A model generated the notes under the pieces. That model saw only the letters and a list, made by a program, of their open reading frames with translations. It made no database searches and was not told the DNA's origin. DNA of 33,113 nt from Egibacteraceae bacterium (GTDB lineage Bacteria > Actinomycetota > Nitriliruptoria > Euzebyales > Egibacteraceae), in NCBI GenBank assembly GCA_035540635.1, contig DATLGH010000050.1, positions 1-33,113 on the forward strand. Direction: 5' to 3'. Of the stretch, positions 9,855 through 17,755 are shown one piece after another; position 1 is the first letter of the stretch, and each line of letters starts with the position of its first letter. Made by a program: the position numbers and the translations under genes.

Positions 9855-10313
9855 CTATGCCACCTCGACGACGGCGTCGACCTCGACGGGGGCGTCCAGG
9901 GGCAGGGCGGCCACACCGACCGCGGAGCGCGCGTGCCGGCCGTCCTCGCCGAACACCTCGCCGAGCAGGTCAGATGCGCCGTTGGCGACGAGATGCTGCT
10001 CGGAGAACCCCGGGGCGCTCGCGACGAAGACCGTGAGCTTCACGATCCGGCCTACGGCGGACAGGTCGCCGACGGCGGCGCGCACCTGGGCGAGGATGTT
10101 CACCGCGCAGGCGCGCGCGCAGCGCTGCGCTTCGGGGACGCCGAGGGCCCGACCGACGAGGCCGGTGGCGAGCAGCCGGCCATCCTGGAGGGGGAGCTGT
10201 CCGGCGGTGAACACGAGGTCGCCCGAACGCACCCACGGCACGTAGGCGGCTGCCGGCGCCGGCGGCTCCGGCAGTGCGATCCCGAGCTCGGCCAGGCGAT
10301 CCTCGGGCGTCAC
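9855..10313 (-). CDS. RidA/YjgF/YER057c/UK114 family protein
   Basis: This 152-residue protein belongs to the RidA superfamily, whose archetype hydrolyses reactive enamine/imine intermediates. It has VRSGDLVFTAGQLPLQDG near residues 29-46, the VPEAQRCARACAVNILAQVRAAVGDL helix, and the C-terminal SAVGVAALPLDAPVEVDAVVEV strand. The catalytic Arg typical of RidA proper (in an R-x-x-V context) is not clear, and the length fits the longer actinobacterial branch, so enamine deaminase activity is uncertain. It starts with GTG, 13 bases downstream of whiB on the same strand, so the two are probably cotranscribed. In M. tuberculosis a RidA-family gene (Rv3678c) also neighbours the ArsA-like pair and whiB4. 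Confidence 0.88.
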   Translation of the reverse strand: MTPEDRLAELGIALPEPPAPAAAYVPWVRSGDLVFTAGQLPLQDGRLLATGLVGRALGVPEAQRCARACAVNILAQVRAAVGDLSAVGRIVKLTVFVASAPGFSEQHLVANGASDLLGEVFGEDGRHARSAVGVAALPLDAPVEVDAVVEVA

Positions 10314-10326
10314 CGAGCGGCCGGGC

Positions 10327-10623
10327 TCAGCACGCTTTCAGCCTGGCCGCGAGGATGTGCTTGCGGTCGAGCTCCGAGTGCCCGCCCCAGACGCCGAACG
10401 GCTCCTCGGTGTCGAGCGCCCACTCGAGGCACTCGACCTGCACGGGGCACGCCGCGCAGATGGCCTTCGCCTTCGTCTCCCGCGCTTCCCGCTCCGGCTT
10501 CGGTTCGAAGTGCATCGGCGGGAAGAACACCGTGGCGTCGGTGGTGCGGCACAGGCCGTGTTCCTGCCAGGCTGTGGACAGCGTGGTCTGCAGCAGCGGC
10601 AACGATGCGATGCTCCGACCCAC
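10327..10623 (-). CDS. WhiB-family iron-sulfur transcriptional regulator (WhiB4-like by context)
   Basis: This 98-residue protein carries the four cluster-binding cysteines: Cys25 (GLCRTTD), Cys56, Cys59 (CAACP) and Cys65 (VEC). They are followed by the GVWGG turn (77-81) and a basic C-terminal helix (LDRKHILAARLKAC). WhiB proteins bind a 4Fe-4S cluster that senses oxygen or nitric oxide and act with the primary sigma factor. Cys98 at the very C-terminus is an extra cysteine. The start is GTG with GAGGGA very close upstream. Assignment to the WhiB4 branch rests on neighbourhood: in M. tuberculosis whiB4 sits beside the ArsA-like pair and ponA2, as here. It probably has its own promoter in the 81-base gap after the slipin gene, but none is clear. 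Confidence 0.93.
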   Translation of the reverse strand: MGRSIASLPLLQTTLSTAWQEHGLCRTTDATVFFPPMHFEPKPEREARETKAKAICAACPVQVECLEWALDTEEPFGVWGGHSELDRKHILAARLKAC

Positions 10624-10704: not shown

Positions 10705-11484
10705 TCACTCCTGACGCGCGCCCTGGCTCGCCCCCCGGAAACCCATGAGCAGCTCCATCGGTATGGGCAGCACAAGCGTCGAGTTGTTCTCCGCAGCGAC
10801 CGCGTTCATGGTCTGCAGCACGCGCAGCTGGTAGGCGATCGGCTCGCTTGCCATGACCTGTGCGGCCTCGTGGAGCTTTTGCGCAGCCTGGAACTCACCC
10901 TCGGCGCTGATGATCTTCGCGCGGCGGTCACGTTCGGCCTCGGCCTGGCGGGCCATGGCCCGCTGGATGTCCGAGCCGAGGTTGACGTCCTTGATCTCGA
11001 CGAGCGTGACCTTCACGCCCCACGGCTCGGTGAGCTCGTCGACGATCTGCTGGATCTGGGAGTTCAGCCGCTCCCGCTCGGCGAGCAGCTCGTCGAGCTC
11101 CGCGGTGCCGCACACGCTGCGCAGGGTCGTCTGGCACACCTGCGACGTGCCGAACATGTAGTTCTGGATCGCCACGACGGCCTTGACCGGCTCGACGACG
11201 TTGAAGTACGCCACCGCGTCGACGCGAACGGTCACGTTGTCACGGGTGATCACCTCCTGCGAGGGCACGTTGACGGTGACCGTCTGCAGGTTGACCTTCA
11301 CCATCTTGTCGATGATCGGAACGATGAAGAACAAGCCCGGGCCTTTTGCGCCCTGGAGGACCTTTCCGAGACGGAAGATCACCCCCCGCTCGTACTCCTG
11401 GACGATCTTGATCGCCGCGACGGCGACCGCGAGGAGCAGCGCCGCGAGCACGGCGACGAAGAGCACTATTCCGTCCAGTTCCAC
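10705..11484 (-). CDS. SPFH/stomatin-like membrane protein (slipin)
   Basis: This 259-residue protein has one N-terminal membrane segment (about residues 6-25, [21 protein letters not shown]) followed by the SPFH domain. [15 protein letters not shown] and [17 protein letters not shown] are hallmark slipin sequences, with a coiled-coil ([20 protein letters not shown]) and the [20 protein letters not shown] end. Slipins oligomerise in the membrane and are linked to lipid microdomains and membrane protein quality control. The GTG at 11484 is chosen because GGGAGG lies six bases upstream; the longer open frame is a shadow of nfeD. It lies 41 bases downstream of nfeD in the same operon, the classic slipin-NfeD pairing in which NfeD proteases cleave the slipin C-terminus. 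Confidence 0.93.
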
Positions 11485-11525: not shown

Positions 11526-12845
11526 CTATCGGGCTGCCTCCTGGGGGGAGTCCACGAGCTCCACGTCGAGGGTGAGCCGGTCGTTCAGTCCGATGACCCG
11601 CACGGGGGTCCCCGTCTTTACCCTGCCGGCGGCCTCGGGGGCCCGTGCCCGCCACAGGGCACCGTCGACGAAGACATGGCCCTCGGGGTTGAGCATCGAG
11701 CGCACGACGCCCGACTTGCCGACCACCCGGTCCGCCCCCGCCATCGCCTGGCTGCTCTGTGCGCGCAGCACCATCGTCATCACCGGGACGAAGAAGACGA
11801 CGGCGCTGGCGACGCCGAGCAGTGCCAGCCACCCCGGAAGGGTGACGAGATCGGGCCCGGCGAACAGGTTCCATGACCCGACGCCGAGCGCCACCGCACC
11901 CGCCGCCGTGAGGATCCCGAGACTGCCGATGGCGAGGTCGGCGGCGAGCAGGACGAGCCCGGCGACCACCAGGGCGAACGCCCACCACGCCACCGGCAGG
12001 GCCACGACCCCGTAGAGACCGAACCCGGCGAGCGCCATGCCCGACACGCCGGCGACGCCGAACCCGGGCTGGAAGATCTCGAAGGCGAGGGCCAGGGCGC
12101 CGCCGAGCAGCAGCACGTAAGCGAGCGACGGGTCGGCGAGGCCGTGGAGGACCCGACGGCCGAGGCCGAGGTTCGTGAACCGCACCGTCGCGGCCTGCGG
12201 GTCGATGTCGAGGTTCCTCGGGGCGCCCCGCACCGTCACGGTCAGCCCGTCGAGCTCGCTCAGCACGTCCTCGAGGCGTGGGGCCACGATCGCCGCCGCC
12301 CCCTCGTCGAGTGCCACCGACTCGGTCACGACCCGTGCCCCCGGCGGCGCCCGGAGGTCGACGTCGAGGCCCTCTGCGGTCACCGTGAGGGCCTCCCCGG
12401 ACGGGGCCCCGTCGTGCAGGTCGGCGGGCTCGGAAGGTCCGATCGTCGAACCGGGTGCGAGCGCGAGCACGTGCGCCGCTTCGGCGACGACCGCTGCGGC
12501 GCCCGCCGCCACAGCCCCGGGCGGGCCCACCCAGACGACGACCGGCACCGCCGAGCCCGCGATGCGGTCCGCGAGCTCGCCGCCGGAGACGCGCAGCCCG
12601 CCGGGGCTGTCGAGGGTGATGACGACGGCGTCGACCCCCGAGGCCTCGGCCCGGGTGATGACGTCGGTGAGGAAGGCGGCCACCGGGCGATCGAGGGGCC
12701 CCTCGACCTCGGCGATCTCCACGGTGGAGCGCGGGTCCTGGGCGCCGGCCGCAGCCGACAGCAGGCCGAGCAGGAGGCCGGCGAGGAGCAGCACGACACC
12801 AGCGGCACGCAGCGGCAACCGCCGGGCAAGGGCGCGGGGGACCAT
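11526..12845 (-). CDS. NfeD-family membrane protein with degenerate ClpP-like protease domain
   Basis: This is a long-form NfeD protein of 439 residues. It has a signal peptide (1-35), a ClpP-fold domain (about 40-215), five or six membrane segments (about 235-370) and a C-terminal OB-fold NfeD domain (about 375-435, [23 protein letters not shown]). The fold is recognisable from ITLDSPGG (76-83) and [10 protein letters not shown]. However, the expected nucleophile motif GARAASAG is here GAVAAGAA, so residue 115 is Gly instead of Ser. There is also no lysine anywhere in the first 370 residues, and the segment that normally carries the catalytic Lys is shortened. It therefore probably binds its partner slipin without cleaving it. 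The start has a -10-like hexamer six bases upstream and no Shine-Dalgarno sequence. Confidence 0.9.
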
Positions 12846-12967: not shown

Positions 12968-13942
12968 GTGGAGGTGTCCAACCTGCTCGACCCGCGCGTG
13001 CTCATCGTCACGGGCAAGGGCGGGGTCGGCAAGTCGTCGGTGGCGGCGGTGCTCGCCCTCGCGGGGTCCCGCACCGGCCGGCGCACATGCCTCGTCGAGG
13101 TCGAGGGGCGCCAGACGATGTCGCGGCTGTTCAGCACCCAGCCGTGGGACTTCCAGGAGCGCGAGTTCCGGCCGGGCCTCTTCGGCATGTCGATCGACCC
13201 GGAGGCGTCGCTGCTCGAGTACCTCGAGATGTTCTACGGGGCCCGACGGCTGTCGAAGCTCGTGGTGGGCTCCACGGCGGTGGAGTTCGCCACCACCGCC
13301 GCGCCCGGCATCAAGGACGTCCTGCTCATCGGCAAGGTGAAGGAGATGGAGCGCCGCCGCGACGACGACGGGCGCTTCCACTACGACCTCATCGTCGTCG
13401 ACGCCCCGCCGACGGGGCGGATCGTCAACTTCCTCCGCGCCCCCGACGCCACGACCGAGCTCGTGCACGTCGGGCCGATCCGCAACCAGGCGCAGTCGGT
13501 GGTCGACATGCTCCTCGACCCGGGCCGCACGCACCTCCAGCTCGTGACCGTCCTCGAGGAGATGCCGGTCACCGAGACCATCGAGAGCGCGGCGGCGCTG
13601 CGCGAGCTCGGCGTGACCCTCGGCCCGGTGGTCGTCAACCGCACGCTGACCGACGAGCTCGACGAGCCGGCGCGCAAAGCGTTCCGCGACGACCTCGAGA
13701 CCCCCGACCTCGTTGCCGTGCTCGCGGGGGCGGGCCTCGATGTGTCCGAGGAGGCCGCGGCGGACCTGCGGGCACTCGCCGACCGCCACCTGGCCCGCCT
13801 CGACCTGCAGGAGCGCATGCGCGAGCAGCTGCGGGCGAAGCTCGACCTGCCGATCCTCGAGCTGCCCTACCTCTTCGCGGAGCGCTTCGAGGAGGCCGAG
13901 CTGGCCGTCCTCGCCGACCTCGTCGAGGAAGCGGTCCAGTGA
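12968..13942 (+). CDS. ArsA/Get3-like ATPase, first subunit (BagA-like)
   Basis: This 324-residue P-loop ATPase has the deviant Walker A GKGGVGKS (16-23), including the signature lysine Lys17 that reaches across the dimer. Also present are the [12 protein letters not shown] segment (switch I region) and VVDAPPTGR (switch II/Walker B, about 144-152). The C-terminal [14 protein letters not shown] region fits the ArsA/Get3 fold. Start is GTG with GGAG upstream. Its closest context is M. tuberculosis Rv3679, part of a Get3-like pair (BagA/BagB) reported as affecting redox stress and metabolism; that link is from memory and position. An arsenite pump role is unlikely, as no arsB, arsR or arsenic-binding cysteine cluster is visible. 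The next gene encodes its partner. Confidence 0.9.
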
Positions 13943-13970
13943 GGCGTGGGGGAAGGCGTGGGGGAAGGCC
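13943..13970 (+). repeat. Tandem 12-bp repeat carrying two Shine-Dalgarno copies before bagB-like gene
   Basis: The unit GCGTGGGGGAAG occurs twice in tandem between the stop of the first ATPase gene and the ATG of the second. Each copy holds a GGGGGAAG purine tract able to pair with 16S rRNA. Only the second copy is correctly spaced for the ATG at 13971. Confidence 0.8.
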
Positions 13971-15125
13971 ATGACGAAGTCCGCGCTGGACGCGGCCCGC
14001 GGGCGGGACCTCTCGCCGGCGGTCGCCAAACGCCACGTGATCGTCTGCACGGGGTCGGGGGGGGTCGGCAAGACGACCACCGCCGCGGCGCTCGCGCTCG
14101 GCGCCGCGCGCGCAGGCAGGCGCACCATCGTGCTCACGATCGACCCGGCGCACCGTCTCGCCCAGTCGCTCGGGCTGCACGCCCTGGACAACACCCCCCG
14201 TGCCGTGCGGGGGGTGGAGGGCCTCGACGCGATGATGCTCGACATGCGCCAGACCTTCGACGAGGTGATCGACCGCCACGCGCCGAGCCTCGCCCGAGCG
14301 GAGGCGATCCGGTCGAACCGCTTCTACAAGCAGCTGTCCGAGTCGCTCGCGGGCACGCAGGAGTACATGGCGATGGAGAAGCTCTACGACCTCCACGAGT
14401 CGGGGCGCTACGACTGCATCGTCATCGACACCCCGCCGACCCGCAACGCCCTCGACTTCCTCGACGCCCCGAAGCGCCTCACCGACTTCCTCGAGGGTCG
14501 GTTCCTCAAGACGTTCCTCGCGCCCGGCCTGCGCGCCGGCAAGGCCTTCGGGCGCGCCGCGACGTGGGGCACCGGGATGTTCATGAAGGCGGCGTCGCGG
14601 CTGACCGGCGCGGAGGTGCTCCACGACCTCGCCGACTTCTTCCACTCCTTCGAGGGGATGTACACCGGCTTCAAGGACCGCGCCCAGGCGGTCTACAAGC
14701 TCCTGCAGAGCCCCTCGTCGGCGTTCGTCGTCGTCGCCACCCCCGAGACGCCGGCGCTTCGCGAGGCGCGCTACTTCCTCCAACGCCTCGCGCAGGACGG
14801 CATGCCGACCGCCGGCGTCGTGGTGAACCGCACGACGCCCCCGGCCGACGACAGCCTCGCGCTGCCGGACAGGGCGGCGGCCGAGGCGGCCATCGCGCGC
14901 CTCGGCGACGGCGGCCCGGAGGAGCGCGCCGCCGCCGCGCTGCTCCGTCTGCACGTCCAGCGCCGCGACGTCGCCTCGCGCCAGCGGCGTACGGTCGCTG
15001 CCGCGCTGCACGGCGTTGACCCTCGCGCCCTCGTCGAGGTGCCCCTGCTCGGGAGCGACGTCAACGACGTCGACGGGCTGACGGCACTCGGCCGCTGGCT
15101 GTACGGCGCCGCCGACGCCGCCTGA
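13971..15125 (+). CDS. ArsA/Get3-like ATPase, second subunit (BagB-like)
   Basis: This 384-residue P-loop ATPase is paired with the gene 28 bases upstream. Its Walker A is GSGGVGKT (28-35), in which the signature lysine of the first subunit is replaced by Ser29. TIDPAHRLAQSLGL and IDTPPTRNALDFLDAP are the switch I and switch II regions of the ArsA family. A hydrophobic helical segment in the middle (about 170-240) corresponds to the Get3 client-binding region, and the C-terminus ends in GLTALGRWLYG. The ATG follows a duplicated Shine-Dalgarno tract. An asymmetric heterodimer with the first ATPase is likely, as for M. tuberculosis Rv3679/Rv3680. Client proteins cannot be inferred from sequence. 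Confidence 0.9.
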   Translation: MTKSALDAARGRDLSPAVAKRHVIVCTGSGGVGKTTTAAALALGAARAGRRTIVLTIDPAHRLAQSLGLHALDNTPRAVRGVEGLDAMMLDMRQTFDEVIDRHAPSLARAEAIRSNRFYKQLSESLAGTQEYMAMEKLYDLHESGRYDCIVIDTPPTRNALDFLDAPKRLTDFLEGRFLKTFLAPGLRAGKAFGRAATWGTGMFMKAASRLTGAEVLHDLADFFHSFEGMYTGFKDRAQAVYKLLQSPSSAFVVVATPETPALREARYFLQRLAQDGMPTAGVVVNRTTPPADDSLALPDRAAAEAAIARLGDGGPEERAAAALLRLHVQRRDVASRQRRTVAAALHGVDPRALVEVPLLGSDVNDVDGLTALGRWLYGAADAA

Positions 15126-15154: not shown

Positions 15155-15208
15155 CCCTGGCCGTAGCGGTTGCGCAGGACCGAGGGTTTCCGTAAGCCGC
15201 TGTCGGCC

Positions 15209-17755
15209 ATGCCCCGATCGTCATCGCCCACGAGCGACGTCACCGCGCAGCGGATGACGGGCCCCTCTGACTGGGGCCCGCTCGCGCTGCGCCTGGTCCT
15301 GCTCGGGGTGAGCATCGGCGGCGCCGCGATGCTGCTCGCGGCGAGCCTGGCCCCGACGGCGAGTCTCGCCGGTGGACTGCTCGACGTGGTGGACGGTCAG
15401 CTGATGGCGCAGATCCCCCCGCTGCCCGACGACCTCGGGGAGGCCGCCGAGCGCAGCGTGATCTACGACCGCAACGGCGGCGAGATCGCCGTGCTGCGGG
15501 CGGTGAACCGCCGCATCGTCGGGCTCGACGAGGTGCCGGCGCACGTGCGCGAGGCCGTGGTCGCGACCGAGGACGCGCAGTTCAGCGAGCACCACGGCGT
15601 GAACTGGCGCGCGATCGCCCGCGCCTTGGCCGGCAACGTCACCGCCGGCGACATCACCAGCGGCGCGTCGACCATCACCCAGCAGCTCGTGAAGAACCGC
15701 GTGGTCGGCTCCGAGCAGACGGTGGACCGCAAGCTGCGCGAGGCGGTGTACGCCATCGAGCTCGAACGCCGCTTCACGAAGGAGGAGATCCTCCAGGCCT
15801 ACCTGAACGAGGTCTATCTCGGTAACGGGGTCTACGGGATCGGCACCGCCGCCGAGTTCTACTGGGGCAAGGACCCCCGCGAGCTGACCGTCGCCGAAGG
15901 CGCGCTGCTCGCCGGCATCATCCGCTCCCCCGCCCGCAACAACCCCGTCGACGACCCGCTGTCGGCGCTGCGCCGGCGCAACATCGTCCTCGACCAGATG
16001 GCGCGTGCCGGCTTCCTCGACAAGGCCGAGGCGGACGCCCTCGAGTCCTCACCGCTGGAGCTCGACATCCACGAGCTGCCGGAGGCGCGCAGCCCTTACC
16101 TCGTGGACTACGTGCGGGCGCAGCTCAAGGCGGACCCGGCCCTCGGCGCCACCGAGGCCGAGCGTGACCAGAGCGTCCTGCTCGGCGGGCTGGAGATCCA
16201 CACCACCCTCGACCCCGCGTTGCAGGACATCGCGCACGCGGTCATCGCCGAGGTGCTCGGCGGCCCCGACGCGCCGCTCGGAACCCTCACCGCCGTGGAC
16301 CCGCGCACCGGCGAGGTCCTCGCCGTCGGCTTCGGGCCGCATCCCTACGGTCCGGGCCCCGGACAGGTGGACGTGAACCCGGCCGTGCCCGAGGGCGGGG
16401 GGAGCGGTCGTCAGCCGGGGTCGGCGTTCAAGGCCTTCGAGATCGTCGCCGCCCTCGAGGAGGGCATCTCGCCGACGTACGCCTTCGACGCGCAGGCCCG
16501 CTACACCCACACGGACCCCGCCTGCCGCGGTCACCAGATCGGCAACTACGCCGACGCGAGCCAGGGCGTCCTCGACATGGGGACGGCGACCGCCCGCTCG
16601 AGCAACACCTACTTCGCGCACCTGCTCGACCGGACCGGACCGGCCAAGCTCGTCGACGTCGCCCGGCGCATGGGCATCCCGACGCCGCTCGAGCCGCTGT
16701 GCTCGCTCGTGCTCGGCGCGGGGGAGGTCTTCCCCCTGCACATGGCGTCGGCGTTCGGGACGCTCGCCAACGGCGGGGTGCACTGCCCGCCGTTCGTCAT
16801 CGCGCGCGTGCTCGACCGCAACGGCCGCGAGATCTCCGGGGGCGGCGGGCAGTGCGAGCAGGCCGTCGACGCGGGGATCGCCGCCCGGGCCACAGCCCTC
16901 CTGCGCGGCCCGATCGAGTCGGGCACGGCCGCACGACGCGGCGGCATCGGGCGACCCGCGGCCGGCAAGACCGGGACCACCGACGAGTACTACAACGCCT
17001 GGTTCGTCGGCTACATCCCGCAGCTGTCGGCCGCGGCGTGGGTGGGCCACGAGCAGCCGCGGACGCTCACCGACTCCCGTTGTGGGGGCTCGGTGACGGG
17101 CGGCTGCCTGCCGACGATGCTGTGGCAGCGCTTCATGTCCCGGGCGGTGGCGGCGTTGAACCTGCCGGTCGAGTCGTTCCCTGCCCCCCCGCCGTTGCCG
17201 GTCGCCACCGTTCCCGACGTCCTGGGCAAGCGGGCAGACGATGCCGAGCGCACCCTGGCCGGCGCGGGGTTCGCCGCGATCACCGAGACGGTGACGGACC
17301 ACCGGCCCGCCGGCACGGTCGTGTCGCAGACACCAGGTGGGGGCACGACCACCGAACAGGGGTCGGCGGTCCAGCTCGGCGTGTCCGACGGCGCGGGGGC
17401 TGCACCCCAGGTGCCGGGCGTCGTGGGCCTGACGCGGGAAGCCGCGCTGGCGAGGCTCGCCGAGGCGGGTCTCGTCGGCACAGTCGTCGAGGTGCCGGTG
17501 GACGACGCGGCTTCGATCGGGCGGGTCGTCGGCCAGCGACCGGGTGCCGGGGCGAGCCCCCCGGAGGGGCAGGCGGTCGTCCTCGAGGTGGGCCGCCAGC
17601 GCACGCAGGAGGACCCGGCTCCCCAGCCGACCGCGTCGCCGGCGCCGGCGCCGAGCCCGTCGCCCCCGGCAGGCGACCCCGCCGCCGAGCCCGTCGGCGA
17701 GCAGGCGCAGCCCGAGGACGAGCACCCCCTCGCGCCGCTCCGCCCGCCGCGATGA
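15209..17755 (+). CDS. Class A penicillin-binding protein with two PASTA domains (PonA2-like)
   Basis: This bifunctional peptidoglycan synthase (848 residues) is anchored by one membrane segment (about 25-58). The GT51 glycosyltransferase domain has EDAQFSEHHG (121-130, catalytic Glu121), GASTITQQLVKN and RKLREAVYAIELE with YLNEVYLGNGVYG. The transpeptidase domain has the SxxK motif SAFK (Ser405), SSN and KTGTT. Two PASTA repeats (about 667-733 and 735-800) and a Pro/Ala-rich tail follow. PASTA repeats bind muropeptide-like ligands. The ATG at 15209 is preferred over a TTG 13 codons upstream, although its Shine-Dalgarno is weak. The stop overlaps the start of the phosphoesterase gene (ATGA). 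M. tuberculosis ponA2 (Rv3682) stands in the same position next to the ArsA-like pair. Confidence 0.95.
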   Translation: MPRSSSPTSDVTAQRMTGPSDWGPLALRLVLLGVSIGGAAMLLAASLAPTASLAGGLLDVVDGQLMAQIPPLPDDLGEAAERSVIYDRNGGEIAVLRAVNRRIVGLDEVPAHVREAVVATEDAQFSEHHGVNWRAIARALAGNVTAGDITSGASTITQQLVKNRVVGSEQTVDRKLREAVYAIELERRFTKEEILQAYLNEVYLGNGVYGIGTAAEFYWGKDPRELTVAEGALLAGIIRSPARNNPVDDPLSALRRRNIVLDQMARAGFLDKAEADALESSPLELDIHELPEARSPYLVDYVRAQLKADPALGATEAERDQSVLLGGLEIHTTLDPALQDIAHAVIAEVLGGPDAPLGTLTAVDPRTGEVLAVGFGPHPYGPGPGQVDVNPAVPEGGGSGRQPGSAFKAFEIVAALEEGISPTYAFDAQARYTHTDPACRGHQIGNYADASQGVLDMGTATARSSNTYFAHLLDRTGPAKLVDVARRMGIPTPLEPLCSLVLGAGEVFPLHMASAFGTLANGGVHCPPFVIARVLDRNGREISGGGGQCEQAVDAGIAARATALLRGPIESGTAARRGGIGRPAAGKTGTTDEYYNAWFVGYIPQLSAAAWVGHEQPRTLTDSRCGGSVTGGCLPTMLWQRFMSRAVAALNLPVESFPAPPPLPVATVPDVLGKRADDAERTLAGAGFAAITETVTDHRPAGTVVSQTPGGGTTTEQGSAVQLGVSDGAGAAPQVPGVVGLTREAALARLAEAGLVGTVVEVPVDDAASIGRVVGQRPGAGASPPEGQAVVLEVGRQRTQEDPAPQPTASPAPAPSPSPPAGDPAAEPVGEQAQPEDEHPLAPLRPPR

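Follow-up and report, generated by a model that had tools for sequence, protein, structure and literature searches.

The long NfeD gene at 11526..12845 on the minus strand of the window, the 33,113-nucleotide stretch of Egibacteraceae DNA analyzed here, is best explained, with a probability of roughly 0.6, as encoding an ancient pseudoprotease that is maintained by selection and works through its membrane and OB domains. The 439-amino-acid product was assigned to the NfeD1b architecture from Pfam and a match to PH1510-N, and it combines the features of a long NfeD, namely a ClpP-like domain, membrane and OB domains, and a slipin neighbor, without the Ser-Lys dyad. On the same strand, the ClpP-like domain (residues 41–205, 12231..12725) was delimited from an AlphaFold2 model and its VIA-align alignment to 2deo/3viv, the membrane domain (residues 206–365, 11751..12230), which holds the majority of the residues that dyad-less relatives conserve, from Pfam, and the OB-fold, partner-binding domain (residues 366–439, 11529..11750) from PF01957 and a match to 3wwv (TM 0.86 by target). 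Pfam scores exceeded the cut-offs for the membrane (PF24961, 60.6 bits) and OB (PF01957, 40.6 bits) domains, and NfeD1b_N scored 38.1 bits, slightly below its cut-off of 40.

The initial annotation described a retained NfeD–slipin pair, and a slipin (SPFH/Band 7) gene does adjoin at 10705..11469 (PF01145, 1.3e-37; its start may lie a few codons upstream), on the same strand and about 60 bp or less 3' of the NfeD stop codon. It is followed, also on the minus strand, by genes for a WhiB regulator (10330..10596; PF02467, 1.5e-24) and a RidA/YjgF-family protein (9855..10313; PF14588, 2.2e-20; PF01042, 2.3e-20). Divergent from nfeD on the plus strand lie a first ArsA/Get3-like ATPase (12968..13942; PF02374, 5e-26), a second one (13962..15125; PF02374, 6.6e-34) and, from a domain search, a class A penicillin-binding protein with PASTA domains (15170..17755), the last two with starts that are not fixed.

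The catalytic residues are absent from an otherwise recognizable protease domain. In a phmmer comparison with PH1510-N (3bpp; E 6e-15), a ten-residue segment of the window NfeD stands opposite PPGASAASAG, placing Gly115 (codon 12501..12503, minus strand) in the column of the catalytic Ser97, so that the GAxAASAG motif lacks its serine. The general base Lys138 is missing as well: the helices of this region are deleted, and K377 and K410, both outside the protease domain, are the only lysines of the protein. In a relative with an intact dyad (L172), helices 148–164 and 169–177 span the Lys138 region; both Lys-bearing helices are absent from the window protein, where residues 149–169 (12339..12401, minus strand) form a loop with pLDDT under 50. 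The remainder of the domain was modeled mostly with pLDDT over 90 and superimposes on PH1510-N (2deo/3viv) over 180 residues with a Z score of 23.8 and an rmsd of 2.6. These results bear out what had been proposed from the DNA alone, namely that glycine replaces the serine, that no lysine precedes about residue 377, that the Lys-bearing segment is short, and that a predicted structure would keep the ClpP fold without the dyad. Judging from these residues, peptidase activity has probably been lost. A sequencing error is very unlikely because the ortholog in a second genome of the genus (G001), 74% identical, has the same glycine and the same deletion.

The archaeal protease PH1510 uses its Ser97-Lys138 dyad to cut the C-terminus of its slipin PH1511 (PMC10153343). 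This stomatin operon partner protease of Pyrococcus horikoshii shares with the window NfeD the ClpP-like–membrane–OB order, a slipin operon (putative for the window NfeD) and the fold, but differs in possessing the dyad. Short-form NfeDs, such as Escherichia coli YbbJ (with QmcA), resemble it in their membrane and OB domains, in an SPFH partner and in that no protease activity would be expected. Protease-free NfeD1a, which pairs with SPFH1a, has no ClpP-like domain (PMC2636767), whereas in the window protein this domain is present and predicted to be folded, although it looks inactive. Canonical actinomycetal NfeD1b proteins with a slipin (NFED2 type), including a second copy on contig C60 of the window genome, share the architecture, the C60 copy at 35% identity; unlike the window NfeD, they keep both Ser and Lys, lie outside the ArsA–WhiB block and usually have a slipin of their own.

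The gene block itself is conserved. At nearly all complete loci in Nitriliruptoria, the penicillin-binding protein and the two ArsA-like genes (PBP–ArsA2–ArsA1) occupy one strand and NfeD–(slipin)–WhiB–RidA the opposite strand, and an NfeD-containing block is also present in other Actinomycetota families. The initial annotation had suggested surveying homologs beside the same genes. When block linkage was defined as the presence of at least one of five marker genes in the vicinity, 82 NfeDs were collected, although three f2 rows with a single marker (L098, L222, L223) may not belong among them; 67 of the 82 lack the catalytic serine, the column holding Gly in 64, Ser in 15, Asn in 2 and His in 1. 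The full dyad is missing from 64 of the 65 block-linked NfeDs without an adjacent slipin vs 7 of the 17 with one, where loci with 1.5 kb flanks may miss a neighboring gene. Thus, the dyad-less state is usual for block NfeDs across Actinomycetota, mostly with no slipin adjacent, and what is unusual at the window is that a slipin still adjoins the dyad-less copy. The seven such loci comprise two from the window genus (L001 and L003) together with L008, L029, L052, L073 and L074; L029 and L052 have kept Ser and lost Lys.

Across all 138 NfeDs, 54 have the dyad and 8 lack it where a slipin is adjacent, vs 10 and 66 where it is not, with kinship included in these counts. A phylogeny-aware test of dyad against slipin was not significant, with no more than six independent contrasts in slipin along well-supported branches; Fisher values for the association are therefore overstated. 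The tree requires at least five state changes for Ser and seven for Ser plus Lys, indicating that the dyad was lost several times. Among 61 genomes, an intact-dyad NfeD was found in 28 of 32 with a slipin vs 2 of 29 without, and a dyad-less block NfeD in 26 with and 22 without, the absence of either gene from a draft genome being weak evidence in any single case. Beyond these groups, L100 and L101 in Nitriliruptoraceae represent a third, distant NfeD-like group alignable only over the first ~360 residues. A canonical-type NfeD beside a slipin at L218 (2231-3589, minus strand) has Ala for the catalytic Ser and keeps Lys, an independent loss of the serine outside the block.

In the window genome, the second long NfeD (L002, contig C60) retains Ser and Lys and has no slipin beside it; the two paralogs are about 35% identical. 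The genome has one slipin of this type, and its other SPFH gene is flotillin-like (L232, G000:C110:37482-38054); just upstream, on the same strand, lies a gene for a short NfeD2-like protein of membrane and OB type. In Egibacteraceae-like genomes with a slipin beside the block NfeD, the second NfeD, where found, stands without one (L002, L078, L079, L094, L095, L220); in those with a slipin beside the second NfeD, it is the block NfeD that stands without. Groups in the slipin tree match NfeD context, and block slipins are sister, with moderate support (83), to f6 slipins next to intact-dyad NfeDs of an ArsA block. Because the slipins beside the NfeDs of L004–L006 are sister to these f6 slipins, we favor an ancestral block operon of active NfeD and slipin followed by repeated loss of the dyad; early loss with later regain of Ser and Lys is a possible alternative. 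A domain swap with canonical NfeD was also considered as the origin of Ser-Lys in L004–L006, and separate trees of the N- and C-domains gave no decision: the rows fall by the canonical group in the N-domain tree, a placement that slow evolution would explain as well, and repeated loss was again favored. The slipin next to the window NfeD retains a 13-residue C-terminal motif; this motif is kept beside dyad-less and intact-dyad NfeDs alike and is uninformative as a sign of cleavage.

The window genus pair gave dN/dS values of 0.33 for the protease-like domain, 0.25 for the membrane domain, 0.10 for the OB domain and 0.074 for the slipin. Five further dyad-less pairs gave 0.09–0.30 for the N-domain and 0.06–0.14 for the membrane domain, and three canonical pairs gave 0.09–0.20 and 0.15–0.19, respectively. 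Of the six dyad-less pairs, which are not all independent, five had a lower value in the membrane domain than in the N-domain; of the three canonical pairs, two had the lower value in the N-domain. Constraint on the OB domain is strongest in the slipin-bearing genus, a value from one pair. Purifying dN/dS in a degenerate domain implies that the domain is kept and that the weight of selection has moved toward the membrane domain. Residues at least 85% conserved in 62 dyad-less block NfeDs likewise lie mostly in the membrane domain (R222, F223, Y243, F255, E256, Q259, P260, G261, D303, S324 and T357) and the OB part (W398 and G412), and many canonical N-domain positions have been lost. No N-domain Ser, Cys, His or Lys reaches 85% in this set, and no new active site is therefore apparent. 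Dyad loss in most block relatives suggests that the membrane region matters rather than the enzyme.

These observations can be joined into the following account. A block-linked paralog of a long NfeD would have kept its ClpP-like fold and its membrane and OB domains while losing peptidase activity, as the residues indicate. The selected function would reside in the membrane and OB domains, probably as an anchor or organizer of a membrane assembly, like short, protease-free NfeDs. At the window, this assembly would include the slipin encoded alongside. Because NfeD1a pairs with SPFH1a, NfeDs have been proposed to promote SPFH oligomerization (PMC13086221) and NfeD stabilizes flotillin in Staphylococcus (PMC11222466), the window protein could plausibly serve as a scaffold beside its slipin. 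Most relatives have no adjoining slipin, and in them the protein may act without one, in a context shared with ArsA-like ATPases, WhiB, PBP and RidA, as the conserved gene order would suggest, although such conservation is no proof of a common function; a slipin-independent role is probable since genomes in which no slipin was found keep this protein too. The initial annotation had offered a structural or regulatory role, as scaffold, decoy or membrane organizer. The structural option is the most probable, but the general task of these proteins cannot be that of a slipin decoy or scaffold, because most dyad-less block NfeDs have no adjacent slipin. If the slipin is still cleaved in the window species, the intact-dyad NfeD of C60 would do so in trans.

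Other explanations can be weighed against this evidence. The dyad-less NfeD might be a dead regulatory subunit that mixes with the active C60 paralog and tunes slipin cleavage, in the manner of inactive subunits in mixed proteases; PH1510-N acts as a dimer (PMC10153343), and both paralogs occur in the window genome and G001, each under purifying selection. We nevertheless consider this unlikely, given that the paralogs are so dissimilar, and it is not the general function, since slipin is absent from about half of the genomes that carry a dyad-less block NfeD, and many Nitriliruptoraceae lack an intact-dyad NfeD altogether. Slow decay of a copy made redundant by a second NfeD–slipin operon would fit the several dyad losses on the tree and the higher N-domain dN/dS of the dyad-less copy in the window genus (0.33 vs 0.20 in the active paralog). 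However, nearly all relatives have an intact reading frame, the fold is predicted at high confidence, and the membrane residues hardly vary between families. With dN/dS far under 1 in every domain, decay is already disfavored, and its chances are slim.

The dyad-less block NfeD might also be a membrane partner, for example a docking site, of the divergent ArsA/Get3-like ATPase pair within an envelope-stress system that includes WhiB and the PBP, slipin being optional; we rate this idea as improbable. A rebuilt active site formed by another serine and a non-Lys base is less credible still. The domain does retain serines 69, 80, 87, 98, 133, 138, 149, 176 and 196, of which S98 is invariant in a 20-sequence set, and the oxyanion-region glycines G82 and G83 are present in the window copy; yet all of these serines fall short of 85% conservation in the 62 dyad-less block NfeDs, and G83 is Ala in the same-genus ortholog. 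As for a sequencing, assembly or start-site artefact, the draft assembly of the window genome comprises 110 contigs, but the recurrence of both glycine and deletion within the genus and of glycine at 64 of 82 block-linked loci refutes it.

No description of a dyad-less long NfeD was found in the open literature searched, and an earlier mention is possible, for example in the main NfeD survey of Green et al. 2009. NfeD is a common partner of stomatin-family scaffolds, and the existence of a protease-dead class that is both widespread and under selection would demonstrate that the membrane and OB domains are important in their own right, also in genomes where no slipin is found. By separating the slipin, beside a dead NfeD, from the intact-dyad NfeD elsewhere, the window genome offers a natural experiment on whether slipin can be cleaved only by an NfeD encoded beside it in the operon.

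The block resembles the bagAB–whiB4–ponA2 region of Mycobacterium tuberculosis in its ArsA-like pair, WhiB, PBP and RidA. There, whiB4, ponA2 and a RidA gene lie alongside bagAB, and we know of no NfeD or slipin in that region. The bagAB genes correspond to Rv3679/Rv3680 (PMC10597346). Additional genes accompany the block in some lineages. Two other Actinomycetota encode a ~340-aa membrane protein between the block NfeD and the slipin (L214, 4060-5300; L042, 300-1520), and in family f3 (G028 and G024) an ORF of ~650–680 aa with the look of a sigma/anti-sigma-type membrane protein lies downstream of the block NfeD (L224, 2650-4750; L229, 2750-4900).
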